34,601 nt of DNA, from the IMG/VR virus record IMGVR_UViG_3300020438_000127, positions 1 to 34,601 of that record, one strand, 5' to 3'. This document shows positions 1,002 through 10,081 of the stretch, in pieces. Numbering within the stretch: the stretch's first letter is position 1; each line of letters begins with the position of its first letter. The position numbers were made by a program, and so were the translations under genes. Origin of the DNA: a virus. The notes beneath the pieces were generated by a model, which ran no database searches, was not told where the DNA came from, and worked only from the letters and a program-made list of their open reading frames with translations.

Positions 1002-1234
1002 TTGACAAAGACCTCGTTGAGTTTGGTGTGTTCTTCAGTTAGTTTAGCAATTTGTTGCATGTGATATGCTACGTGAGCAAGATACTCCTGCTCTTCTTCA
1101 TCAACTTCATCATAAGCAATGTCATAGCAGTCATCAATATCAACCGTGTTATCATCATAACACGTCATGCCATACATGGTATCCGTAGAAGAATCCATCG
1201 CATAGGCATTACCAGCAGCAACGAGATAGAACAT
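998..1234 (-). CDS. Acidic hypothetical protein, 78 aa
   Basis: First gene of the chain running to the left edge. ATG at 1234 lies 23 nt after the TATACT box of a strong sigma70-like promoter (1258-1286). No good Shine-Dalgarno is seen between them. The N-terminus is short and hydrophobic (MFYLVAAGNAYAM), the middle is very acidic (DEVDEEEQEY), and the end looks like a short coiled coil (QIAKLTEEHTKLNEV). An export signal is possible but not convincing. Function unknown. Confidence 0.72.
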   Translation of the reverse strand: MFYLVAAGNAYAMDSSTDTMYGMTCYDDNTVDIDDCYDIAYDEVDEEEQEYLAHVAYHMQQIAKLTEEHTKLNEVFVK

Positions 1235-1257
1235 GGGAGTGAAAGCAGGGTGAATTT

Positions 1258-1286
1258 AGTATACTATGTATTGGACTGAATGTCAA
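1258..1286 (-). promoter_or_regulatory. Sigma70-like promoter TTGACA-N17-TATACT
   Basis: TTGACA at 1286-1281 and TATACT at 1263-1258 are separated by exactly 17 nt. The next ATG (1234) starts 23 nt after the -10 box, so the leader is short. The -35 hexamer contains the TGA stop of the upstream 155-residue gene, so promoter and gene end are packed together. This is the type read by host vegetative RNA polymerase, expected of early phage genes. Confidence 0.8.
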
Positions 1287-1750
1287 GCGACATATTGTGC
1301 GTTACGGTAGAGATAACCACCTGCCCAATCAGCATGAGCAAGCATGAATTCACGCTCTTTGATGATCAGCATGTTGAAACGCACTCCCTTAGCAGGTGCT
1401 TTGACGCTCGCTGCTTTGTATACTTCACCAGTCTTCTTATCAATGAAGCAGTGAACACTACGTGAATTACCATCAGTAGTCATCATCACCTTGTGATACT
1501 TACGACCAGTGTCAACACTGAACTGATACGTACCAATGTTAGCCTTAAGGTCAGCAATCTTGTTCTCATAGAATTCTTTGTTATCAGGGTTGCTGGTAGC
1601 AAAGAACTCAGCACGACGGATAGACTCGTTAACGAAGTCTTGCTCTAGTGCTTGACAGAGACGGAATGTGTGCCCTAGGATCGCTTGGTTGATGTCATTA
1701 CGTGCCTCAGCAGCGGCAGCGTATTCAGCGAAGGTGACGGTGGCAGGCAT
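1283..1750 (-). CDS. Conserved hypothetical protein, 155 aa
   Basis: The frame is open up to 1939, but I choose ATG at 1750 because it lies 22 nt after a TATACT box and the longer version would read through that promoter. The N-terminal half is helical (AEYAAAAEARND, NESIRRAEFFA). The C-terminal half looks like a compact beta domain with TGRKYHKVMM, VHCFIDKKTGEVYK and the end DWAGGYLYRNAQY. I recall this C-terminal pattern (fixed Lys-Thr-Gly-Glu-Val-Tyr-Lys, then Pro-Ala-Lys-Gly-Val-Arg) from many cyanophage genomes, where it has no assigned function. No catalytic residues are recognised. Confidence 0.82.
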   Translation of the reverse strand: MPATVTFAEYAAAAEARNDINQAILGHTFRLCQALEQDFVNESIRRAEFFATSNPDNKEFYENKIADLKANIGTYQFSVDTGRKYHKVMMTTDGNSRSVHCFIDKKTGEVYKAASVKAPAKGVRFNMLIIKEREFMLAHADWAGGYLYRNAQYVA

Positions 1751-1772
1751 GGTGTGTTTGTTTGTTGAACTT

Positions 1773-1793
1773 AGTATAGGGCATCTGGTGCCC
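1773..1793 (-). promoter_or_regulatory. Promoter -10 box with abutting inverted repeat
   Basis: TATACT at 1778-1773 is directly preceded by a perfect inverted repeat GGGCA-N5-TGCCC (1779-1793). No -35 resembling TTGACA is present at the usual distance. ATG of the 155-residue gene follows after 22 nt. The inverted repeat would occupy the promoter spacer, so it could be an operator or mark an activator-dependent promoter. Confidence 0.55.
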
Positions 1794-1799
1794 AGTGGA

Positions 1800-2030
1800 T
1801 CAGTTGGTGGGCACTTCGGTCGCTGGCACACGGGAGACGGTGAAACTCTTGATCTCATAGTTTCTCCATGCGTCACATGCCTCCTGCACCATGCGCTCCA
1901 TCTGCCTCTCCATGCCCTTGTGAGTCGTACACTTGCCACACTTGCGGAAGTAGGTGATAGGGTGCTGTGGAGACGCGATAGTCTTGACCTCGATCTTGTA
2001 GTGTGAGTGCTTGACGACTGTGACTGTCAT
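1800..2030 (-). CDS. Small basic CxxC protein, 76 aa, unknown
   Basis: ATG at 2030, 26 nt after a TATACT box, in the leader pattern ACACACCACATG also found before the gene at 3321. The product is basic and carries one CxxC pair (RKCGKCTTHKG) with nearby histidines, which could bind a metal or be redox-active, but a single pair is not diagnostic. The C-terminus is Val/Thr/Pro-rich. The gene is visibly richer in G and C than its neighbours, which may mean recent acquisition. Another reading frame covers much of this stretch (1873-2166), but only this one has the promoter-spaced start. Confidence 0.62.
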   Translation of the reverse strand: MTVTVVKHSHYKIEVKTIASPQHPITYFRKCGKCTTHKGMERQMERMVQEACDAWRNYEIKSFTVSRVPATEVPTN

Positions 2031-2056
2031 GTGGTGTGTCCCGTGCTGATGAATAT

Positions 2057-2085
2057 AGTATAGGGCATTTGGATGCCCTGTGTGC
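2057..2085 (-). promoter_or_regulatory. Promoter -10 box with abutting palindrome
   Basis: TATACT at 2062-2057 is immediately preceded by the perfect inverted repeat GGGCAT-N4-ATGCCC (2063-2078). At -35 spacing the sequence is GCACAC (2085-2080), not TTGACA. The gene at 2030 starts 26 nt downstream. The design closely matches the element at 1773-1793. Confidence 0.55.
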
Positions 2086-2099
2086 GTTCAGTGGACAGT

Positions 2100-2315
2100 T
2101 CACGAGGTGGTCAGTCGAGACATGCTGATCATGAATAGGAAGACTACCATGATCACCACATCCCATGATTTTGTTCTGATGAAGTATGGGATGCTAATCA
2201 GATCAGCAACACAATTCAACATCACACCAGCGATCACATTCACATGAAGAATCACAAAATAGGCAGTGATAACACCAACGCTGCCTAATACTCTTGCTTT
2301 ACTATCGAGTTTCAT
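2100..2315 (-). CDS. Small two-helix membrane protein, 71 aa
   Basis: ATG at 2315 directly follows the TGA of the upstream 52-residue gene (2316), with no gap. The product has two or three hydrophobic segments: residues about 9-28 (VLGSVGVITAYFVILHVNV), 28-45, and 52-65 (DVVIMVVFLFMISM), separated by a short polar piece with KSWD. An inner-membrane location is likely. From memory, similar small membrane proteins are widespread in T4-like cyanophages without known function. The layout loosely recalls half of a PnuC- or SWEET-like transporter, but it is far too short to call one. Confidence 0.75.
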   Translation of the reverse strand: MKLDSKARVLGSVGVITAYFVILHVNVIAGVMLNCVADLISIPYFIRTKSWDVVIMVVFLFMISMSRLTTS

Positions 2316-2474
2316 TCATAGTAGATCCAATGCTTCTGGTGATAGTTCATCACTAGCACTCTGACGCCAGTTCTTATTCACCTTGTCAAAGTCTTCTACA
2401 ATATCCCACGCTGGTTGAGCATCATCGATGTTCTCAAGAATCCAACGGTCGAGCATTACTTCTGAAATAGACAT
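2316..2474 (-). CDS. Small hypothetical protein, 52 aa
   Basis: ATG at 2474 begins just after the stop of the 93-residue gene (2477) and its TGA abuts the ATG at 2315. It encodes MSISEVMLDR and then an acidic helical protein with several Trp residues, ending LSPEALDLL. The exact fit between two accepted genes on the same strand supports it. It looks like a soluble helical protein; family unknown. Confidence 0.65.
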   Translation of the reverse strand: MSISEVMLDRWILENIDDAQPAWDIVEDFDKVNKNWRQSASDELSPEALDLL

Positions 2475-2476
2475 GA

Positions 2477-2758
2477 TTAGTCAGTTGATACAAATGATTT
2501 GAGTAGTGGCATAGCAGAGTATGCCGTAGTGTTGCTTACGTCTACAGTTTTACCTGGACGTTTGTGGTTAATTGGGGCAATGTAACATTGCTTTTTTGTG
2601 TTGTAGAATCCCCAGATCGATCGGACAGGCTCATTAGTGTAACTAAACCGAGCATGATTCCGAATCCAAATGCCAACGACGTTGGACTTATGTTCATGAA
2701 TCTCATAAGTGAAACCTTTGGGAGCAGAGTGTGGGAAATCAGATGGTAGTTCTGTCAT
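2477..2758 (-). CDS. Conserved hypothetical protein, 93 aa
   Basis: ATG at 2758 overlaps the upstream stop by one base (TAATG). The protein appears to be a small alpha/beta domain: FTYEIHEHKSNVVGIWIR, then VRSIWGFYNTKKQCYIAPIN and a tail TTAYSAMPLL. From memory, the WGFY...APIN pattern and the YSAMP ending are seen in many cyanophage proteins of unknown function. No catalytic motif is visible. It is translated together with the 67- and 52-residue genes around it. Confidence 0.8.
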   Translation of the reverse strand: MTELPSDFPHSAPKGFTYEIHEHKSNVVGIWIRNHARFSYTNEPVRSIWGFYNTKKQCYIAPINHKRPGKTVDVSNTTAYSAMPLLKSFVSTD

Positions 2759-2961
2759 TAAAGATCAGCATGGAGCATCTCATCAACAGTCATCTCAAGT
2801 TCTGCTGCTCGCAGTTCTAGTTCATCACAACATGTGTCATCATCATGGAGATCAAACATATCAGTGTCAATATGCTTGGTGAACTTACCAAACAACATAT
2901 CAAGAAAATTGTGGTCGTCTTTAGTGAACATGTGTAGTTCCTTGTTGAATGGTTGAGTCAT
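2758..2961 (-). CDS. Acidic hypothetical protein, 67 aa
   Basis: ATG at 2961; the stop shares one base with the next ATG at 2758. The product is strongly acidic in its second half (HDDDTCCDELELRAAELEM) with a CC pair, and looks helical. Its first 41 nt overlap the end of the proposed 49-residue membrane protein in another frame. Function unknown. Confidence 0.68.
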   Translation of the reverse strand: MTQPFNKELHMFTKDDHNFLDMLFGKFTKHIDTDMFDLHDDDTCCDELELRAAELEMTVDEMLHADL

Positions 2962-3070
2962 AGTAGTTCATCATCTTAGCATCACGCTGTGCTAAGAATA
3001 GCAGATAGCATGTGATAGTGACAAAGGCAATAATGCCACTTAGGAGAAACTGAGTACCTGTACCTCTCAT
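2921..3070 (-). CDS. Single-pass membrane peptide, 49 aa
   Basis: ATG at 3070 overlaps the upstream TGA by one base (TGATG), a sign of coupled translation. Residues 8-27 form one good membrane helix (FLLSGIIAFVTITCYLLFLA), followed by a charged segment QRDAK and a short polar tail. It fills most of the 108-base gap between two genes and overlaps the next gene by 41 nt, which is long for this phage. The clean helix and exact coupling make it plausible; without them the gap would be unexplained. Confidence 0.5.
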   Translation of the reverse strand: MRGTGTQFLLSGIIAFVTITCYLLFLAQRDAKMMNYYDSTIQQGTTHVH

Positions 3071-3321
3071 CAAACTGCCATCGGGGTGTACTCAGAGCGA
3101 GGCATCTGATCTACGTTATAACCAGTGACCTCAGCACCGTTAGCAATGCGCTCTGCCCACTCATTTTTAGCAGTGAGCATGGTGACAGTGCTGTAAGACT
3201 TGAGACCGTTAGCATTGAAGGTGACACGCTTCTGGAAACGCTTGACGACAGTGCCAGACTCTTCAGCGATGAATGCTTCGGGAAAGAAGTCAACTGTGGT
3301 GACGAGTGTGGTGAGTTGCAT
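3070..3321 (-). CDS. Small hypothetical protein, 83 aa
   Basis: The frame is open to 3354, but ATG at 3321 is preferred: it has an AAAGGA ribosome site 9 nt upstream and lies 24 nt after a TATATT box. The longer form would begin inside that promoter. The product (MQLTTLVTTVDFFPEAFIAE at the start) looks like a small beta-rich domain with KRVTFNANGLKSYSTVTML. The leader ACACACCACATG is the same as before the gene at 2030. Function unknown. Confidence 0.75.
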   Translation of the reverse strand: MQLTTLVTTVDFFPEAFIAEESGTVVKRFQKRVTFNANGLKSYSTVTMLTAKNEWAERIANGAEVTGYNVDQMPRSEYTPMAV

Positions 3322-3345
3322 GTGGTGTGTTCCTTTGACTCTCTT

Positions 3346-3374
3346 AATATACACGGTTATGGGGTGCTGTGCGC
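3346..3374 (-). promoter_or_regulatory. Putative promoter with TATATT -10 box
   Basis: TATATT at 3351-3346 lies 24 nt before ATG at 3321. At -35 spacing the sequence is GCGCAC (3374-3369), similar to GCACAC at the 2057 promoter and unlike TTGACA. It overlaps the 3' end of the 59-residue gene (TAA at 3357). Placement matches the other short-leader promoters in this region. Confidence 0.45.
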
Positions 3375-3536
3375 GTTTGGTAGACAGTTCTCAAACTGGT
3401 TGTAAAGGGCAGCATCGTTGATTCCATTCTTTACCATACAGTCGGTTGAATATCCGAGAGGACACCCAACCATAAGATCCATCACGTATCGGATCTCAGA
3501 GGGCGTTAGAGGCACTTCTATAGTCTGGTCAGTCAT
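3357..3536 (-). CDS. Small hypothetical protein, 59 aa, behind the methyltransferase
   Basis: ATG at 3536 overlaps the TGA of the methyltransferase gene (ATGA), so I take this start rather than the in-frame one at 3617, which lies inside that gene. The protein begins MTDQTIEVPLTPSEIRYVMD and contains two cysteines (GCPLGYSTDC). Coupling places it in the same transcript as the restriction-like cassette, although it may be an unrelated passenger. It has no recognised fold. Confidence 0.7.
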   Translation of the reverse strand: MTDQTIEVPLTPSEIRYVMDLMVGCPLGYSTDCMVKNGINDAALYNQFENCLPNAHSTP

Positions 3537-4417
3537 AAGTGGTTCAAGACGCTTGTGGGCGATTGTGGAGGGGTCTCTGGACATTCTGATCTTAGTCGAT
3601 CTGATGCGATTTGACAATAGTGCTCATCAGAATCAATTCCAATGAAGTTTCTATCAATACCTAGAGCAGCAACGCCAGTTGTTCCACTGCCACAAAATGG
3701 GTCGAGTACGGTAGAATTAATGGGAGAATAGATTTTGATAAGATACTCCATCAAACTCACAGGTTTGACTGTAGGGTGATCGTTATCTTGTCCCTTCTCT
3801 TTACGTGTGGCACGAGGAGCATAGAAATACTTTTGATGCTCATGTTGTACATCACCAATGATATTTGATGGATAGCGTCCATCAGGATTAGCATCTACAG
3901 TTCCAAACTCTTTCTGTGTGCCTGTAGTTTTACCATCCTTACCAAATGTGCGACGTTTAGCACCTTGTGCCACCCAACCAGTAGGAGGTTTCTTATCCCA
4001 CGGAATACGAGTGTTAGTTATATCAATCATTCCGCATCCCCATTCCTCAAAGTTATCCTTGAGCGTACCTTTGTACGGTTTCTGTGCTACGACAATGGGT
4101 TCGTGTGCGGGTTTAAGTTTATTATACTTGGGCATCTTGGTGGTAGTCATCCACATGATCTGATCTTTAATCATAAATCCCGCGTCTTCTACATTACATG
4201 CGAGTCTATGATACAATTCAGGAGAACAGAACGCAAGACAGAATGCACCAGGGCGAAGTGTACGATATACTTCACGCCAGATGTCTACATCAGGAACAGA
4301 ATGATCCCAATGATCCATACCCATACCATAAGGAGGGTCAGTAATACAAGAATGAAAAAAGTTCTCCCCATAAGTGGAGAGAACAGATTGGCAGTTACCC
4401 GCGAGGATGTTATACAT
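3533..4417 (-). CDS. DNA methyltransferase, beta-class N6-adenine/N4-cytosine type
   Basis: A 294-residue protein of the N6/N4 methylase family (PF01555 type). The catalytic motif DPPYG is at residues 27-31, before the SAM-binding motif DPFCGSGTTG at 239-248; this order defines the beta class. HPTVKP at about 214-219 and GRYPSNII at about 180-187 are further family signatures. The middle section (about 100-200) would carry target recognition. DPPY rather than SPPY favours adenine-N6, but this is not decisive. Length is normal for an intact enzyme. It follows the ParB-like gene with a one-base overlap (TAATG). Together with the endonuclease-like gene upstream this suggests a modification partner, or protection of phage DNA against host enzymes. 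Confidence 0.92.
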   Translation of the reverse strand: MYNILAGNCQSVLSTYGENFFHSCITDPPYGMGMDHWDHSVPDVDIWREVYRTLRPGAFCLAFCSPELYHRLACNVEDAGFMIKDQIMWMTTTKMPKYNKLKPAHEPIVVAQKPYKGTLKDNFEEWGCGMIDITNTRIPWDKKPPTGWVAQGAKRRTFGKDGKTTGTQKEFGTVDANPDGRYPSNIIGDVQHEHQKYFYAPRATRKEKGQDNDHPTVKPVSLMEYLIKIYSPINSTVLDPFCGSGTTGVAALGIDRNFIGIDSDEHYCQIASDRLRSECPETPPQSPTSVLNHL

Positions 4418-5577
4418 TAATACAGTTTAATCATTTTAGTTTCTCCAGCAAACTCAGGAAATGCTTCGTACATAGGCAAAGTACCAAGATTATCAACATA
4501 GATCATCTGATATGCTTCACCCATCATCTTCATGTGGTCACCAACCTTTTGGATAAACATGCGGCGCATTTCATCTGCTTTTATAGCATCAATTTTACCA
4601 GATTTCTTCAAAGAAAACAAGACCTTAAGAGGACCATTCTTATCAAGAACATGTTGAGCCCACTTATATGCTACCTCCTCAACACCACGACCTTCATCCT
4701 GAGAAAGAATAATGGGGATATCATTGTTAGAAATGAAGTCATAATTTTTAGTACCAGATTTAACCCATTCCTGAAACGTTTCTTCTACATACTCTGCCAT
4801 AAAAAGAGAATCCCATTTCTTACGTTCAGGAGTAAATCCACCTTTGTGTCCTAGTCGTCGAACGATAGCATCACGAGTTTTGGCATGAACGTGATATGAT
4901 TCAACTTCATCTAACATAGATTTTTCTTCCTTTTCAGGTGTAGGAGCGTTAGCAATAGCAACAGAAATGTCAGAGTTGGGATCCTGAAGTTGACGTAAAA
5001 TGCTGTTAATAATGTCACCATCCTTACGGGGATTAGATGAATAAAGATTACGATTCGCTTCAGCAGTTGCCCATTTAATAAGTTTGCTAATGGTAATGTC
5101 AATAATCCAGGCAAGAATATGAGTTTGACCAGCGAGTCGAGCAGCGTAAAGACGATGAGTAAGATTAGCAATACCATAAATTCTCTCTACGCCATCAGAG
5201 GAAAAACTCATACCTTGAAACTCTTTAGGAAGACGAAATACTGCTCCCTGCATTAAAAGAGGATCCCACTTCTTATCAAGCATATCTTTAGCAATACTAT
5301 CTACAGTATCCTGATCTTTATCATCATCAGCACGGGTTTGAAATCCACGGGGGCGATCTAATTCTTTATCATATTTGTGAGCAATATATCCCAAATCATG
5401 AATCTGACGAATGTCAATTAAAACAGGATGGTCAGTAACTGCCTTACCATATCCTTCAAGAAGAGTGTTGATATGAGGACCTTGCTTACAGTCTTCAAAT
5501 AATTCTGTATTGAAACAAAGATTTTCATTTACCTCAATACTAGTATCTAAGTGGAGAGTTTCTTCTAAAATTTCCAT
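4417..5577 (-). CDS. ParB/sulfiredoxin-fold-like protein, 386 aa
   Basis: The frame opens with TTG at 5607, but ATG at 5577 is the first standard start and is preferred. Residues about 52-160 resemble a ParB N-terminal nuclease-like domain: VLIDIRQIHDLGYIAHKYD, the Asp-Arg-Pro-Arg stretch, WDPLL, then ANLTHRLYAARLAG followed by HILAWIID. The HR inside that motif corresponds to the HR of the ParB/Srx GxxHR signature, although the usual Asp-Gly before it is replaced. The remaining roughly 225 residues are mostly helical and unknown. Plasmid partition is unlikely here. ParB-like domains are often found next to or fused with DNA methylases in phages. Sitting between an endonuclease-like gene and a methylase, it may provide DNA binding, nicking or control. 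Confidence 0.7.
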   Translation of the reverse strand: MEILEETLHLDTSIEVNENLCFNTELFEDCKQGPHINTLLEGYGKAVTDHPVLIDIRQIHDLGYIAHKYDKELDRPRGFQTRADDDKDQDTVDSIAKDMLDKKWDPLLMQGAVFRLPKEFQGMSFSSDGVERIYGIANLTHRLYAARLAGQTHILAWIIDITISKLIKWATAEANRNLYSSNPRKDGDIINSILRQLQDPNSDISVAIANAPTPEKEEKSMLDEVESYHVHAKTRDAIVRRLGHKGGFTPERKKWDSLFMAEYVEETFQEWVKSGTKNYDFISNNDIPIILSQDEGRGVEEVAYKWAQHVLDKNGPLKVLFSLKKSGKIDAIKADEMRRMFIQKVGDHMKMMGEAYQMIYVDNLGTLPMYEAFPEFAGETKMIKLY

Positions 5578-5596
5578 TGTTTTTGTTTGTGTGTAA

Positions 5597-6271
5597 TTAT
5601 TGGTCAAAAAGATTTAATGCTTGCTCTTCAAGAGATTCTGAATACTCCCAAAGATCAGCATCCTTGTGCTCAAATCTCTCAGCATATTCTGGTTTGATTC
5701 TACCAAGTTCAGATGCAAGTTTCTTTTTAAGGTAGATAGCATGATCTTCCATACCTTTAGCAAACGCCAAGACTGCTTTCGCTTCTACATCATTAATAAT
5801 TTGCTCGCCATGACGTATGATAATCACATTACTAGATGCCTTGTAAGTCAAATAGATAGTCACCCTAACTTTATCTGGATCATTCAAACCAGCGTTGAAT
5901 TTAGGAGTCTTTGATCCAGAAAAAATAGACTTACACTCAATAAATTTAATCTCATCAGGGTGAACAACAATGAAATCAGGAGTGCTCTTGGGAAGGTCAA
6001 GAACATAAACAGTCTTACCATCATCACAACCGCCAATATAGACTCTACACTTAGGTGTTGCTTTAGGGTGAATCTTTTTCTTCATAGAAGCAGTGAGATC
6101 CTTCACCTCAACTAAATCAAACTCAAAGATCAGGTCATCAAGAACAAGTGTCTCAAAGGTCTGACCTGAATTTTGATCAGTGTTTTGGGTGTCAGGGACC
6201 AAACTCTTTTTGTTGTCAGAGATTCTATCCAACACAGTCCTGATCTGCTTGCGAAAAACTGAGGAAGACAT
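5597..6271 (-). CDS. PD-(D/E)xK type II restriction endonuclease-like protein
   Basis: ATG at 6271 (224 aa) is chosen because the longer TTG-started frame at 6307 would begin inside the promoter. The active-site pattern is clear: TPDFIVV with Asp99, then IKFIECKS with Glu112 and Lys114, the spacing expected of a PD-(D/E)xK nuclease. It is followed by PKFNAGLNDPD, a stretch I recall from type II restriction enzymes of the HaeIII/NgoPII sort. The N-terminus is basic and helical; the C-terminus is helical and charged. It is the first gene of a transcript continuing into the ParB-like and methylase genes. Which site it cuts cannot be read from sequence. A Holliday-junction or recombination nuclease is the main alternative. 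Confidence 0.75.
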   Translation of the reverse strand: MSSSVFRKQIRTVLDRISDNKKSLVPDTQNTDQNSGQTFETLVLDDLIFEFDLVEVKDLTASMKKKIHPKATPKCRVYIGGCDDGKTVYVLDLPKSTPDFIVVHPDEIKFIECKSIFSGSKTPKFNAGLNDPDKVRVTIYLTYKASSNVIIIRHGEQIINDVEAKAVLAFAKGMEDHAIYLKKKLASELGRIKPEYAERFEHKDADLWEYSESLEEQALNLFDQ

Positions 6272-6295
6272 GAACGCTTGCTTGGTTATGAATAT

Positions 6296-6324
6296 AGTAT
6301 GACACAAAAAAAGGGGTGTGTCAA
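6296..6324 (-). promoter_or_regulatory. Sigma70-like promoter TTGACA-N17-CATACT for the restriction-like cassette
   Basis: TTGACA at 6324-6319 and CATACT at 6301-6296, spacer 17 nt. The nuclease ATG at 6271 lies 24 nt after the -10 box. The -35 hexamer sits in the loop side of the terminator hairpin of the upstream gene, so both signals share the same bases. Confidence 0.75.
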
Positions 6325-6329
6325 CCCCC
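6306..6329 (-). terminator. Rho-independent terminator after the 2OG oxygenase gene
   Basis: On the minus strand GGGGT (6328-6324) pairs with ACCCC (6317-6313) around a six-base loop, followed by seven T (6312-6306). It begins 8 nt after the TAA at 6338. It is the only hairpin-plus-T-run of this quality in the window. It ends the small-gene/oxygenase transcript and isolates the restriction-like cassette. Confidence 0.75.
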
Positions 6330-6337
6330 TAGTCCAG

Positions 6338-6898
6338 TTAGCGAAGTGGTGGACCAGTGAACCATCCAACGATGCTTTTTCTGATACCATGTGTCACAGG
6401 TGTAACCCTATGAACCATGTGACTAGGAAAAACTATTAGTGTGCCACGTTTTTTAGGGACAGAGAAAATACGGTATGGATCTTCTGAGTCTGGTGTTGGT
6501 GATATTGCTATTTGTAGCACTCCACCATCGTAATCATCATTTAGAACTAAGGAGAACGAAAGTTTCCTAACAAATGCTGCACTACAGTTTTTTTGAGTGT
6601 CAACATGCCAATTATAATGATCATTTACACAATAGTGTGCATATTGAAACTGATCGTTGTCATAGCAACGGAGATCATAGTTATATTCTTGCTTATTGAC
6701 ATCTGCTACATTGTTTAGACATAACTTTCCAATATAATGAGATGAATGAATAAACTTGACCTTACTAGATCTCCAATCAAGATTGTTATCAAAAGTTACT
6801 GCTTTCTTCCACTCTCCTATACTATCCAACTCAGCAATCATCTCATTTAATATTAGATCGTCAATTCTAAGTTGGCGCACAGAAAAAGTGTCCATCAT
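6338..6898 (-). CDS. 2OG-Fe(II) oxygenase, prolyl 4-hydroxylase type
   Basis: A 186-residue double-stranded beta-helix oxygenase. Iron ligands are His98 and Asp100 (YNWHVD) and His163 (HMVHRV); Arg173 (HGIRKSIVGW) would hold 2-oxoglutarate. The segments VLNDDYDGGVLQI and GTLIVFPSHMVH are typical of the PKHD/P4H group. Length is that of a single catalytic domain. It would hydroxylate a protein side chain; the substrate is unknown. ATG at 6898 overlaps the upstream stop. A strong terminator follows. It stands apart from the other three oxygenases, which are 2.7-5 kb upstream near the fibre genes. Confidence 0.9.
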   Translation of the reverse strand: MMDTFSVRQLRIDDLILNEMIAELDSIGEWKKAVTFDNNLDWRSSKVKFIHSSHYIGKLCLNNVADVNKQEYNYDLRCYDNDQFQYAHYCVNDHYNWHVDTQKNCSAAFVRKLSFSLVLNDDYDGGVLQIAISPTPDSEDPYRIFSVPKKRGTLIVFPSHMVHRVTPVTHGIRKSIVGWFTGPPLR

Positions 6899-7053
6899 TG
6901 ATCACTAAAGATAGGGATGATGTTAGTTTTAGCGTGTTCTGTTTTGTTAATGTGTTGTTCCCACATGCTAGCATCATCTAAGTTATAGAAGATCGCTTGC
7001 TGTTTCGCTTGCCCCTTCTTCTTGTTCTTCATCCACACAACTGCGTACTTCAT
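6895..7053 (-). CDS. Small basic conserved hypothetical protein, 52 aa
   Basis: The frame is open to 7152, but ATG at 7053 gives MKYAVVWMKNKKKGQAKQQA, the usual start I recall for this small cyanophage family (AVV..KN.KKG.AK, then a LDDA.MWEQH segment). With this start it overlaps the previous gene by 71 nt in another frame. Its stop overlaps the oxygenase ATG (ATGA). Function unknown. Confidence 0.7.
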   Translation of the reverse strand: MKYAVVWMKNKKKGQAKQQAIFYNLDDASMWEQHINKTEHAKTNIIPIFSDQ

Positions 7054-7216
7054 CCCAATACTCTCGAAAAACACATAAAGTTGACTGATAACGACCATGA
7101 CGACATGATGGGTCAGGTCGATCGACATAACAAATAGTGATATACCTATCACTGATAAAGTCTACCCACCCTGTGGTGGCGTGATACTGAACCTTCATAC
7201 CACGAGTAAATTTCAC
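6983..7216 (-). CDS. Conserved hypothetical protein, 77 aa, GTG start
   Basis: The start codon is GTG at 7216, in a GTGA overlap with the upstream stop. The first part (MKFTRGMKVQYHATTGWVDF) looks like a small SH3-like beta barrel: a basic opening, then GWVDFISDRYITICYVDR and REYWDEV. I recall this pattern in many cyanophages, where the protein usually ends soon after YWDE. Here the frame continues another 20 residues (acidic, Ser/Ala-rich) across the start of the next gene, giving the 71 nt overlap. Function unknown. Confidence 0.72.
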   Translation of the reverse strand: MKFTRGMKVQYHATTGWVDFISDRYITICYVDRPDPSCRHGRYQSTLCVFREYWDEVRSCVDEEQEEGASETASDLL

Positions 7217-7413
7217 TCGTCAACCTCTTCAAATGGTTGACGATTTTGATTCTCTACTTTAGGAAGACGGAACATCTCTTTCAAGTCATTCAACTGATTT
7301 AATTGACGTTGGAGATTGTCAATCTGTGCTTGTAAAATCTGAAAGTTAGAATCATTGTTATTCTGCATCATCAACATGTTGTTGATTGCTTGTTTAAAGT
7401 CTTCTTCAGTCAT
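7213..7413 (-). CDS. Coiled-coil hypothetical protein, 66 aa
   Basis: ATG at 7413 shares a base with the upstream TAA. The product is dominated by a Gln/Asn-rich heptad-like helix (FQILQAQIDNLQRQLNQL), so a coiled-coil oligomer is likely. The tail is polar and acidic. Function unknown. It is part of the chain 7875-6338 linked by small overlaps. Confidence 0.72.
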   Translation of the reverse strand: MTEEDFKQAINNMLMMQNNNDSNFQILQAQIDNLQRQLNQLNDLKEMFRLPKVENQNRQPFEEVDE

Positions 7414-7661
7414 TAGTAGCGTTCAGGAATACGGTGGTCTAGGTTAAGAGCAGTGTTGCCGGTCATAAGATCTCGAAGAGACATAGCACGACAGTATGCT
7501 GTCTTGTGATATTCTATCACATCATCGACGCCAGATAGCATCTCTTCATACGTTTGTCGTGCTGATACTTTATCATCGTTGAGGTAATCATCGATCGCAT
7601 CTTGCATACGATCTTTACGCTGTTTTGAATACTCATTTTTCCAGTTGATTTCAGTTTTCAT
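7413..7661 (-). CDS. Small hypothetical protein, 82 aa
   Basis: ATG at 7661 is favoured over an in-frame ATG at 7673; both lie in the end of the upstream gene. The sequence starts MKTEINWKNEYSKQRKD and is helical and charged, with a C-terminus LNLDHRIPERY. No motif is recognised. The 1-nt overlap with the next ATG supports the frame. Confidence 0.7.
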   Translation of the reverse strand: MKTEINWKNEYSKQRKDRMQDAIDDYLNDDKVSARQTYEEMLSGVDDVIEYHKTAYCRAMSLRDLMTGNTALNLDHRIPERY

Positions 7662-7875
7662 TAAAGTCTTCATTACGACGTTTGTCAAGGTATTCAATAA
7701 TCTCACTACGCCATTCTAACAACTCATGATAGCATTGCTGATCATGTGCGTCCTGACGTAGCTGATAGTCTGGTTTGAGAACGCTCTCATAGAAGATATA
7801 GAACGCATCTTTACGTTTCTCGTGTTTTGTGGTACTATTCCAATCCATGGGGTTCGACGGACGCTTTGCTACCAT
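7651..7875 (-). CDS. Small hypothetical protein, 74 aa
   Basis: ATG at 7875 follows a GGAGG sequence about 14 nt upstream and begins 10 nt after the stop of the 288-residue gene. The protein is charged and helical (EWRSEIIEYLDKRRNEDF), with an aromatic N-terminal half (FYIFYESVLKPDYQL). Unknown function. Confidence 0.7.
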   Translation of the reverse strand: MVAKRPSNPMDWNSTTKHEKRKDAFYIFYESVLKPDYQLRQDAHDQQCYHELLEWRSEIIEYLDKRRNEDFNEN

Positions 7876-7885
7876 AGCACAGGTG

Positions 7886-8752
7886 TCAACCTCCTGTCAA
7901 GTCTTTAAATTCGCTCAAACGGCATTGATGAACATAAAAATCTTTAATATTTCCGTCCACACCAATAACATACTCCAATTCAAACGTGGATTGACCAACG
8001 CAAATTGATCTGATATAGTCTTTCTGCTCAGATGTGATGATCTGAAGTCCATCATCACGAGTAAGTAAATCTAACAATCCATCAACTATATCTGTATTAA
8101 AAATTGTCTTGTTAACATACAAACCATTATCATTATCAAATATTTCTGGATACTTAAATGCCACCTGTAATTTAATATCTGTGCTACCTGGCAATAAAGA
8201 CACAACTCCTTTACAAACATCATATCTTCCAACAAATAAGGTGCAAAGTTTTTGTATGAAAGAATTGTCTTCTACATTAATATTGTAATGACCATCCCAA
8301 ACAGAAACCTCAGTGGCAATTCCATCCGGATTATATGATATGCCCATTATTGTCTCTTCCATCCCATCATTATTGTTAGTAATGCTTCTAATCTTAGTTC
8401 TAAAATCTAAGATATTATCATCACCAATCTCACTAATAAACTTATTCCAAATATTAGGATGTTCAATAGTAGAAAATCGAATTGGATTTTTACAATAATA
8501 TGACATTATATTATCATCTTTATGCTCGATATAAAGATATTTGTCAAAAACGTAATTATAATCTTGCGTATGTTTTTGTTTGTAATCAAACAATTTGTTG
8601 AACTTGACAATTAGATCAAGTTCCATATCTGGGAGATATGCAGAATCAACCAAACATGTAAATCTTCGTGGCATCATCTCGATTGTCGAAACATGCTCTT
8701 GTGTGTTTACATTGTATTTCTCTACAATGCGAAAGTTATCTGAGAACATCAT
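7886..8752 (-). CDS. Unknown protein, 288 aa, in the fibre/oxygenase cluster
   Basis: ATG at 8752 overlaps the upstream TGA (ATGA), so it is the last member of the coupled run that begins at 11022. I recognise no domain. The sequence is rich in Asp, Asn, Tyr and Ile, alternating like a beta-rich protein, with segments such as FRIVEKYNVNTQEHVSTIEM and YVIGVDGNIKDFYVHQC. There is no signal peptide or membrane helix. The region is AT-rich compared with the genes to the left. Its position suggests a role with the fibre assembly or modification proteins, but this is context only. Confidence 0.8.
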   Translation of the reverse strand: MMFSDNFRIVEKYNVNTQEHVSTIEMMPRRFTCLVDSAYLPDMELDLIVKFNKLFDYKQKHTQDYNYVFDKYLYIEHKDDNIMSYYCKNPIRFSTIEHPNIWNKFISEIGDDNILDFRTKIRSITNNNDGMEETIMGISYNPDGIATEVSVWDGHYNINVEDNSFIQKLCTLFVGRYDVCKGVVSLLPGSTDIKLQVAFKYPEIFDNDNGLYVNKTIFNTDIVDGLLDLLTRDDGLQIITSEQKDYIRSICVGQSTFELEYVIGVDGNIKDFYVHQCRLSEFKDLTGG

Positions 8753-9096
8753 TCGTTTGTCATTACGATTTGACCAATAGAGTTAGCAAGAGAATAGAAA
8801 ATGTAATTTTCTGGTGTAGTAACACTCTCCTGACTATCTGGTAGATTTGACTCCAAGAAATTTAACATATCATCAAAATCATCTACCTCAGCAAATACAT
8901 GCTCAGAATTCTTTAAAAGATTCCACAGATCATGGGGAAGAATGTTTTTATATATTTCTTGTGAGGCATTAATAGCATCCACATCAGAACTGGCATTCCA
9001 ACCAGTTGATCTGAGATATAATATCGCTTTACCTTTGAGAACAGCGTAGTTCTCAATAAAATTATCAAAGTAGAATGCGTTGTAAGATGAGTTCAT
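8749..9096 (-). CDS. Unknown acidic protein, 115 aa
   Basis: A TTG-started frame begins at 9114, but ATG at 9096 sits in an ATGA overlap with the oxygenase stop (9093) and is preferred. The N-terminus MNSSYNAFYFDNFIENY is aromatic, the middle is acidic (FAEVDDFDDMLNFLES), and the end is hydrophobic (FYSLANSIGQIVM). No family recognised. Coupling on both sides ties its expression to the oxygenase and the 288-residue protein. Confidence 0.75.
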   Translation of the reverse strand: MNSSYNAFYFDNFIENYAVLKGKAILYLRSTGWNASSDVDAINASQEIYKNILPHDLWNLLKNSEHVFAEVDDFDDMLNFLESNLPDSQESVTTPENYIFYSLANSIGQIVMTNE

Positions 9097-9608
9097 TTTA
9101 GTATTAGTTTCCAAGCAACAGTTACTCTCAACCCAGTAAATAATCTAGATGTTCCCTCTGCCATGTGTGGTATTTCACCGGGGAAAAGAATAGCAGAATT
9201 TGGAATAGGGTTTTTATATTCCAATTCATTTTCATTACGGAGAAATATAGTTTTTCCTCCCCACTCTGGTCTCCAGTTAGAATTTGCATAATATAGTAGG
9301 GTTCTCCCGTTTGGTTCATACCAATCAACATGGAATTCTCCTTGAGTACCAAATGTATGCCCATTAGCATACACATCATACAAATCATAATCTTGCTGGG
9401 TTTTTTCCCTAATGATATTTAGAAGATAATCAGAAAAATATGAATCTTCTAAAAAATCTATACGCCAAAATGGAATACCAATAGGATTGTTATTCTCATC
9501 TGCATGTGATCCATGTCCATATCTCCAGCGTGGTTCATTTATTTTAGATGTTATTTTCTCTACTACATTAAAAGAAAAAAATCTATCATATTGTATAATA
9601 TCATTCAT
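9093..9608 (-). CDS. 2OG-Fe(II) oxygenase
   Basis: A 171-residue oxygenase with iron ligands His93 and Asp95 (EFHVDWYEPNGR) and His148 (GEIPHMAEG), and Arg161 (FTGLRVTVAW) for 2-oxoglutarate. The WGGKTIFL strand after the HxD motif and the closing RVTVAWK strand fit the 2OG-FeII_Oxy family. It differs clearly from its neighbours at 9605 and 11028, so it is not a recent duplicate. ATG at 9608 overlaps the previous stop by 4 nt. The likely substrate is a protein or peptide; not known. Confidence 0.9.
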   Translation of the reverse strand: MNDIIQYDRFFSFNVVEKITSKINEPRWRYGHGSHADENNNPIGIPFWRIDFLEDSYFSDYLLNIIREKTQQDYDLYDVYANGHTFGTQGEFHVDWYEPNGRTLLYYANSNWRPEWGGKTIFLRNENELEYKNPIPNSAILFPGEIPHMAEGTSRLFTGLRVTVAWKLILK

Positions 9609-10081
9609 ATTTCAATCCAACACACAAACACATCTCTCCTGCCACATGTTACCTCATTTACTTTGTGAAGTAAATTACCGGGATATATTACTGCTTTTCC
9701 TTTTGATAATTTAATACTACGTTCATTCTCTATCACCAACTCTCCTCCATCATAATCATCATTAAGAAAACAAGTCATACTATAATCTGGTCTCACACCA
9801 CCACATGGATTAGCATCATAATGATTGTCATACATACCACCAACATCGTACTTGACAAAGTATATCTGTGATATTGTTGATGTAGTAAATGGCAATTTGT
9901 TTGACATTATATCACGACAATACATATTCAAATCTAAATTACCAGGTCCATCAAACACAGTTTGACAGACCTTATTAGCATTTAAATTACTAATCTTACC
10001 ATTAGTGAACGTTAAGTAATTAAAGTATCGATTGATATATGTTAATTGTTCATAATTTAGTAAATCAATCTCATATATCAT
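9605..10081 (-). CDS. 2OG-Fe(II) oxygenase, PKHD-type hydroxylase
   Basis: A 158-residue protein with His87 and Asp89 (YDNHYDAN), His139 (NLLHKVNEV) and Arg149 (CGRRDVFVCW), the full iron and 2-oxoglutarate set. LNDDYDGGELVI and GKAVIYPGNLLHKV are strong signatures of the PKHD hydroxylase group, related to prolyl 4-hydroxylases. ATG at 10081 overlaps the stop of the chaperone-like gene (ATGA), linking the two products. The same LNDDYDGG motif occurs in the oxygenase at 6338. Confidence 0.92.
   Translation of the reverse strand: MIYEIDLLNYEQLTYINRYFNYLTFTNGKISNLNANKVCQTVFDGPGNLDLNMYCRDIMSNKLPFTTSTISQIYFVKYDVGGMYDNHYDANPCGGVRPDYSMTCFLNDDYDGGELVIENERSIKLSKGKAVIYPGNLLHKVNEVTCGRRDVFVCWIEI

Follow-up and report, generated by a model that had tools for sequence, protein, structure and literature searches.

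A cassette of three neighbouring minus-strand genes, encoding a nuclease candidate (NucA), a ParB/sulfiredoxin (Srx)-like protein (MidA) and a DNA methylase (MTw), is found in the 34,601-nucleotide stretch of IMG/VR virus record IMGVR_UViG_3300020438_000127 analysed here (the window). By its matches the record is a fragment of a T4-like cyanophage (Kyanoviridae), best matched by S-CAM4 and ACG-2014j at about 86% DNA identity across 74% of the first 12 kb. The cassette is probably a phage type II-like restriction-modification (R-M) island with an optional accessory that would bind nucleoside triphosphates (NTPs) and act on DNA, the enzyme activities being those predicted for its gene products. 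Gene content, conservation, recurrence and the borders of exchange are read directly from the genomes compared, and the ParB/Srx fold of MidA from structure prediction. According to the proposed mechanism the nuclease would cut DNA lacking the cassette's methyl mark, whether the host chromosome, competing phage DNA or both, with a specificity that presumably matches that of the methylase, which would mark the phage's own DNA. The ParB/Srx-fold protein would be an optional NTP-binding accessory working on DNA independently of the recognition site, as a clamp, nick or access factor that helps modification and/or cutting, and the unit would be exchanged between phages, whole or in part, via recombination in conserved flanks.

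Nuclease candidates and methylases

The adjacency of nuclease and methylase that characterises type II R-M is present, with MidA intervening between NucA and MTw in the window. The two segments that the original prediction read as a nuclease core (TPDFIVV, IECKS) are present in NucA, as is the PKFNAGL segment noted with them. Profile comparison by hhalign unites NucA with a second group, NucC, in one family (probability 94, E-value 1.2e-7), and the PDF/ECKS/PxNxG core, with the Asp, Glu and Lys residues whose conservation had been in question, is kept in 2/2 NucA and 33/33 NucC sequences; in these family counts exact duplicates were dropped and an over-long open reading frame (ORF) at locus L028 was replaced by 3060-4250. 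NucA gave nothing above threshold in Pfam, NCBIfam, PADLOC or PDB sequences. It was also considered as a recombination, packaging or repair nuclease, an identity that would have spoken against the original prediction, and no such family scored above threshold; sub-threshold matches of the NucA/NucC set (12 members) at E 0.02-0.08 were to RmuC (four members, best 0.029), NERD (0.02) and Hjc (0.076), the last a recombination nuclease. Together with weak PADLOC matches of the same set to Csx1 (0.003), PglX (0.008) and KwaB (0.02), these were judged to be chance or remote nuclease likeness. A further comparison of NucA with NucC, circular because its alignment already contained NucA, was disregarded; the hhalign result given above is independent of it. 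A pattern-limited scan of genome contigs for a bacterial origin of the set returned one weak match, 35% over about 53 residues.

The remaining nuclease groups show no hhalign link to NucA/NucC or to one another (best probability 2.1). Three of them match the PADLOC model REase_II, namely Nuc58 (E 4.5e-18), NucF (E 2e-7) and an RsaI-like group (E 1.4e-3), while NucREII and NucG correspond to the PHROG families 'restriction endonuclease II' and 'endonuclease'. NucH (L030) and a 218-amino-acid ORF (L115, L117; a Pfam scan of the L115 copy gave nothing) are nuclease candidates by position only.

The third gene encodes a clear methylase, as originally predicted: MTw matches Pfam N6_N4_Mtase (PF01555) with an E-value of 4.1e-39, and its PDB relatives are DpnA, CcrM and RsrI. 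The DPPY motif signals adenine methylation; 'beta' and 'gamma' are class names of DNA methylases. MTg and MT58 fall into PHROG families of DNA methyltransferases, and Dam-type enzymes are known by annotation. In S-CAM4, gp215 (165 amino acids; NC_031900, L011 7840-8727) looks like a shortened annotation of a full-length MTw, which tblastn recovers from record KU686200 over 294/294 residues at 98%; gp216, on the opposite strand and overlapping the gp215 region, is likely a spurious ORF.

Recurrence in other viruses

Scans of IMG/VR yielded 5 NucA, 17 MidA, 39 NucC and 19 MidD loci, and 19 and then 7 loci of a further group, MidB; neighbouring genes were assigned to groups according to how closely they resemble the module proteins. 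These counts are not independent, because the same contigs recur (L025/L053; L003/L103) and some loci are near-identical relatives (L032, L033, L035, L036). Among named phages, tblastn with NucA found none, and with MidA three records, P-SSM7 (twice) and AG-345-E15, at 34-35%. Comparable three-gene sets do occur in other viruses, which answers the doubt raised in the original prediction that the three genes might never be found together elsewhere. MidA is known from 19 distinct loci: 17 from the IMG/VR scan (one of which, L038, is P-SSM7), the AG-345-E15 locus and the window. In 16 of these, several of them closely related, a nuclease candidate and a methylase lie alongside; in the other three (L034, L039, L040) the sequence breaks off inside MidA or shortly behind it. 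P-SSM7 has one extra gene between MidA and the nuclease, and L030, compared with P-SSM7, shares MidA (92%) and the methylases (94% and 85%), yet carries a different gene in the nuclease slot.

A nuclease linked to the methylase had been expected to be rare. Within this group it is not: NucC adjoins MTw in 37/39 IMG/VR loci, the other two (L056, L083) ending before a methylase is reached; the two genes travel together. The gap between them holds MidA in 2, MidB in 6, MidD in 5 and nothing in 24 of the 37; in L073 the adjacent MTw is broken into two frames. The layout with a ParB-like protein between nuclease and methylase does stand as predicted, as a departure from the standard type II arrangement, and the restriction-like cassette originally proposed is upheld in its layout and not in the rarity of its linked endonuclease, the roles suggested for it (destruction of host or competitor DNA, addiction, superinfection exclusion) being putative. 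In L066 (2059-3482) and L068 (6932-8379) an unclassified 182-amino-acid ORF and then a Dam-type methylase directly follow NucC-MTw, possibly as a tandem second cassette.

Nuclease and methylase accompany MidD in 11 of 19 loci, and L088 has a nuclease and then ends. The first MidB scan found an adjacent methylase in 15 of 19 loci, the rest (L056, L114, L116, L118) ending within or soon after MidB, and the second found Nuc58 with MT58 in 7/7; L111 is MidB-MTw without a recognised nuclease. Matches to MidB occur in 94 records of named phages, and when one of each of nine types was examined, a methylase lay adjacent or one small gene away in seven (S-CAM4, S-RSM4, Syn19, S-SSM5, P-RSM4, JLBYU28, Ro1). 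Six methylase groups accompany MidB (MTw, MTg, RsaI-type, MT58, Dam-type and MTf2-like). Beside the Dam-type enzymes of Felixounavirus and Mydovirus, MidB stands without a recognised nuclease. There, phrog_2615, of unknown function, adjoins the Dam-type methylases (L045 3926-4738 in Felixounavirus, L046 3905-4705 in Mydovirus), which extends the MidB-methylase link to enterobacterial phages.

Exchange at a single site

Different cassettes occupy one site between conserved genes of 77 and 59 amino acids: NucA-MidA-MTw in the window, NucC-MidB-MTw in S-CAM4, NucC-MTw in L048-L050 and L052, NucREII-MidD-MTg in ACG-2014e and ACG-2014i, NucREII-MidB-MTg in S-RSM4, and RsaI-methylase-MidE in ACG-2014j US23. 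ACG-2014h has the 59-amino-acid gene, preceded by a tail like the ETPPxSPTSVLNHL end of MTw, and no cassette module was recognised in the stretch examined. The window and L050 agree at 98.4% over 1219-4399 and at 88.5% over 6317-10000, just the interval between being replaced, and the match to ACG-2014i reaches 3587, within the last methylase codons. The borders are sharp, and upstream those with L048, L050, L052 and L010 (6317, 6317, 6295 and 6320) fall at the terminator/promoter.

Within the cassette, the ParB-like protein is swapped on constant pairs: NucC-MTw occurs with MidA, MidB, MidD or none, NucA-MTw with MidA or MidB, NucREII-MTg with MidD or MidB, the RsaI pair with MidE or MidB, and the NucG pair with MidA (L029) or with no Mid adjoining (ACG-2014a). 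Relative to L050, S-CAM4 (L047) has about 1.08 kb more, a stretch that holds MidB and lies between the stop codon of the nuclease gene and the opening codons of the methylase gene; the flanking identities are 95% and 97%. GGTAACT occurs at either end of this stretch in L047 and once at the L050 junction. Such natural pairs, in which nuclease and methylase are kept (85-97% DNA identity) and the Mid differs, are L050 and S-CAM4/L047, L055 and L057, and L053 and L051, all metagenomic contigs except S-CAM4. They indicate constructs able to reveal how a ParB-fold protein acts when it accompanies a methylase.

One-site exchange and the loss of Mid also fit a mobile module, and it is conceivable, if doubtful, that the nuclease leaves host DNA alone and that the cassette serves instead for anti-restriction, for warfare confined to other phages or as a selfish element maintained by addiction. 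A marseillevirus R-M system is indeed reported to have left host DNA undegraded, and co-infecting viruses were proposed as its targets (PMC7253447). For anti-restriction, however, the methylase alone would suffice, yet the nuclease is under purifying selection, with a ratio of nonsynonymous to synonymous rates (dN/dS) of 0.08-0.18 in four pairs; and for chloroviruses the restriction enzymes are reported not to bring about virus exclusion, host DNA being their presumed substrate (PMC7019647). Compared with relatives of the window, dN/dS is 0.15-0.18 for NucA (two pairs) and MidA (one pair) and about 0.1 for MTw (two pairs); the MidA pair L030-L038, of low divergence, gives 0.45.

The ParB-like proteins

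The HRLYAARLAG motif from which a ParB/Srx-like second gene was originally predicted is present in MidA, and the fold is supported by an AlphaFold2 model built on 13 sequences, with a mean predicted local distance difference test (pLDDT) of 78: VIA-align superposes residues 48-178 on ParB (Z 9.4, 97 residues, 2.5 Å) and also places MidA on Noc, KorB and PadC, then on sulfiredoxin (7.5), SerK (6.0) and SbnI (5.0), Z values below 8 possibly meaning just a common arrangement. Foldseek is modest (best PDB E-value 3e-3, none below 1e-3; template modelling score 0.20 for the whole model), with viral predicted structures named ParB/Sulfiredoxin among the matches. At the sequence level MidA gave nothing above threshold in Pfam, NCBIfam or PDB sequences, its weak matches being to the AntA antirepressor (0.09), AbiEii (0.005), a PHROG antirepressor (0.04) and a PHROG ParB-like protein (0.25). 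The arginine of the ParB P-motif is kept in 12/12 MidA sequences, and the full GxxR in 8/12, four (the window copy included) having LTHR. MidD is related to MidA (hhalign probability 98, E 3e-13 and 1e-12), and its profile found nothing in the PDB. MidB and MidE show no hhalign profile link to MidA/MidD; an arginine aligned with the P-motif is found in 16/16 MidB (GxxR in 4/16) and 3/3 MidE sequences, and the MidB profile retrieved no ParB from the PDB, only EF-hand proteins at E 0.05 or worse that were judged chance. The C-terminal part of MidA (window residues 249-386) was considered as a PD-(D/E)XK nuclease and set aside as a lead only, nuclease-fold Z values being 4.4-6.1 (BglII 6.1, EndoMS 5.8, also BstEII) with no conserved (D/E)xK seen in the MidA alignment.

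What these proteins do can be narrowed by what varies around them. Being optional and exchangeable, the ParB-like protein is no obligatory part of a single enzyme, and since one Mid group occurs with methylases of several families, a dedicated protein interface or sequence specificity is unlikely. On present evidence Mid is unlikely to be either a specificity subunit or a regulator tied to one promoter. DNA and NTP are what stays common, which favours an NTP-dependent DNA-acting accessory. Of 28 purified ParB-fold proteins, 11 are reported to have bound ATP, CTP or GTP, a change of the GxxR arginine abolishing binding, and methylase domains, N6_N4 included, are described among the frequent fusion partners of the fold in phages (PMC12704722). 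The occurrence of MidB beside Dam without a recognised nuclease would make modification, rather than cutting, the main partner, and lone MidB copies imply that partnership with a methylase is not obligatory.

A regulatory role, in which the ParB-like protein, in the manner of DndB or a C protein, would repress or time the operon in a nucleotide-dependent way and delay the nuclease until phage DNA is methylated, draws on the DNA-binding ParB relatives KorB and Noc found by fold search, on the weak AntA and AbiEii matches, and on DndB, a ParB-fold protein described as repressing the dnd operon in an ATP-dependent manner (PMC12704722). It is nonetheless unlikely. The 70 bases upstream of the nuclease, the extent of the comparison, are nearly invariant whichever Mid follows: 69/70 are identical between MidB and MidA loci (L051, L025), 69/70 between loci with no Mid and MidB (L055, L057), and 68/70 in another such pair (L050, L047), making a promoter-bound switch less likely; MidB is moreover found in operons of differing content and in another viral group.

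That the protein is instead an effector, a nonspecific nickase or NTPase finishing DNA opened by the restriction enzyme, we also hold improbable. ParB/Srx proteins are reported as NTP-regulated nickases, and nonspecific nicking is described for, among others, the ParB-methylase Bce_0392 (PMC5512222); the C-terminal likeness of MidA to BglII and EndoMS points the same way, yet lies below Z 8 and lacks a conserved motif, and beside Dam without a recognised nuclease a MidB nickase would have no evident partner. Least convincing, and quite improbable, is a further DNA modification, by phosphotransfer or hypermodification, alongside the methylase. SerK, SbnI and sulfiredoxin among the VIA-align rows, MidB beside methylases without recognised nucleases, and DpdB, described as a ParB-like ATPase needed for base modification (PMC12839542), would suit it; no hypermodification gene was recognised among the classified neighbours, which were not searched systematically for such genes. 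An NTP-binding accessory on DNA remains the preferred role.

Evidence to the contrary

Several observations weigh against the R-M island as read here. Neither NucA nor NucC scored above threshold against a known restriction-enzyme model, and the structural model of NucA is too poor (pLDDT 47) for a fold search. NucF has no recognised adjacent methylase in 4/4 phages examined (S-SSM4, ACG-2014f, S-ShM2 and S-BM3; L018-L021). Among the ParB-like proteins, the window MidA lacks the G of GxxR, its nucleotide-binding site being a predicted one, and for MidB and MidE the likeness to ParB is one of motif only. Three of the six MidB-associated methylase groups (MTw, RsaI-type, MTf2-like) belong to PF01555, so the groups are less independent than their number suggests and amount to about three families. 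MidB is without an adjacent methylase in ACG-2014d (one isolate examined) and S-RIM8, and ACG-2014d isolates make up 47 of the 60 MidB matches listed. MidE has an adjacent methylase in one of four loci (ACG-2014j US23), Syn1 having a Dam gene five genes away. Finally, 7 of the 19 MidD loci (L090-L092, L094, L095, L097, L098) adjoin just motif-level methylase candidates, upstream ORFs with NPPxG and/or EVFTP motifs. These may represent a split gamma-type methylase and were not counted as methylases; Pfam gave sub-threshold Eco57I in 2 of 4 NPP ORFs scanned and nothing for the one EVFTP ORF scanned. In L091 and L098 a nuclease/methylase-type pair lies about 1.4 kb downstream of MidD.

Gene layout and flanks

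The features of the cassette and its surroundings are collected in the table. A cassette with a promoter and terminator boundary of its own had been proposed, and the upstream side bears this out, with a hairpin and a promoter-like site; downstream no boundary is seen, the MTw stop overlapping the start of the 59-amino-acid gene by 4 bases. An aligned copy of the promoter-like site precedes the nuclease in L003, L052, L055 and L057. Promoter-like matches are not enriched in the upstream region (9, against a shuffle mean of 11.9). MidA may alternatively start at an upstream TTG, the gene end then being 5607.

Features of the cassette and its flanks in the window
Feature	Position	Strand	Remarks
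59-amino-acid flanking gene, phrog_20742	3357..3536	-	borders several different cassettes; site marker, outside the cassette
MTw, DNA methylase, 294 amino acids	3533..4417	-	DPPYGMGM near N-terminus, FCGSGTT near C-terminus; PF01555
3' exchange border, MTw tail ETPPxSPTSVLNHL	3533..3587	-	tail common to MTg of ACG-2014e/i
Internal exchange border, methylase start (GGTAACTGCC)	4399..4421	-	nuclease/Mid unit replaced in L048, L050, L052
MidA, predicted ParB/sulfiredoxin-fold protein, ~386 amino acids	4417..5577	-	invariant HR at 141-142; predicted fold
NucA, PD-(D/E)XK-type nuclease candidate, 224 amino acids	5597..6271	-	PDF...IECKS...PKFNAGL; profile likeness to NucC
Promoter-like site TTGACA-17-CATACT, TG before second hexamer	6296..6324	-	aligned copy in relatives
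Terminator-like hairpin overlapping promoter-like site; approximate 5' exchange border (6295-6320)	6311..6330	-	
77-amino-acid flanking gene	6983..7216	-	conserved, opposite flank

A second terminator-like hairpin (10 pairs) with a T run lies at 4361-4384, 33 bases within the MTw coding sequence, and could attenuate the methylase or be chance. Genes resembling 2-oxoglutarate-Fe(II) oxygenases lie near the cassette at 6338-6898, 9093-9608 and 9605-10081; the first, confirmed by Pfam, adjoins the cassette in some relatives only, and the other two were assigned by eye.

Comparison with known systems

With bacterial type II R-M the cassette shares the adjacency of a nuclease candidate and a DNA methylase, and nucleases of sister cassettes match REase_II models; it differs in being phage-borne, in its optional ParB/Srx-like third gene, and in that NucA and NucC fall outside the curated models searched. 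Chloroviruses and marseilleviruses likewise encode a nuclease/methylase pair, but infect eukaryotes, and no ParB-like partner is mentioned in the parts of those accounts drawn upon (PMC7019647, PMC7253447). A ParB fold tied to a DNA methylase is described for phage fusions and Bce_0392 (PMC12704722, PMC5512222), whereas here the ParB-like protein has a gene of its own, which comes in several groups, often shares an operon with a nuclease and can be exchanged from one methylase to another. Similarly, DndB and DpdB are reported as ParB-fold, NTP-binding accessories of DNA modification systems (PMC12704722, PMC12839542); in the present case the partners are methylases and type II-like nucleases, and no Dnd or Dpd gene was recognised, no search aimed at them having been made. 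In type IV restriction, GmrSD and BrxU are described as joining a ParB-like domain to a nuclease, theirs being an HNH nuclease directed at modified DNA, in contrast to the separate PD-(D/E)XK-type candidate and methylase found here (PMC5512222, PMC12839542). Among the open-access papers listed, as judged by titles and the beginnings of abstracts, no description of such cassettes was recognised.

Implications

Candidate cassettes are present in isolated phages, namely S-CAM4, S-RSM4, Syn19, S-SSM5, P-RSM4 and P-SSM7. Cyanomyoviruses are described in a 2010 review as lacking denA, ndd and denB and as having either a less efficient degradation of host DNA or an as yet undescribed method (PMC2984593), and chloroviruses are reported to package restriction enzymes (PMC7019647). 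The absence of these T4 host-DNA-degradation genes makes the cassette a testable candidate substitute. It might further be supposed, as a speculative extension, that ParB/Srx-fold NTPases serve quite generally as an exchangeable third partner in phage R-M and modification systems, across methylase chemistries and recognition sites, and that the cyanomyovirus cassettes are missing machinery of host-DNA destruction or phage warfare. The cassettes may be how marine cyanobacterial viruses attack the DNA of their hosts or rivals while sparing their own.

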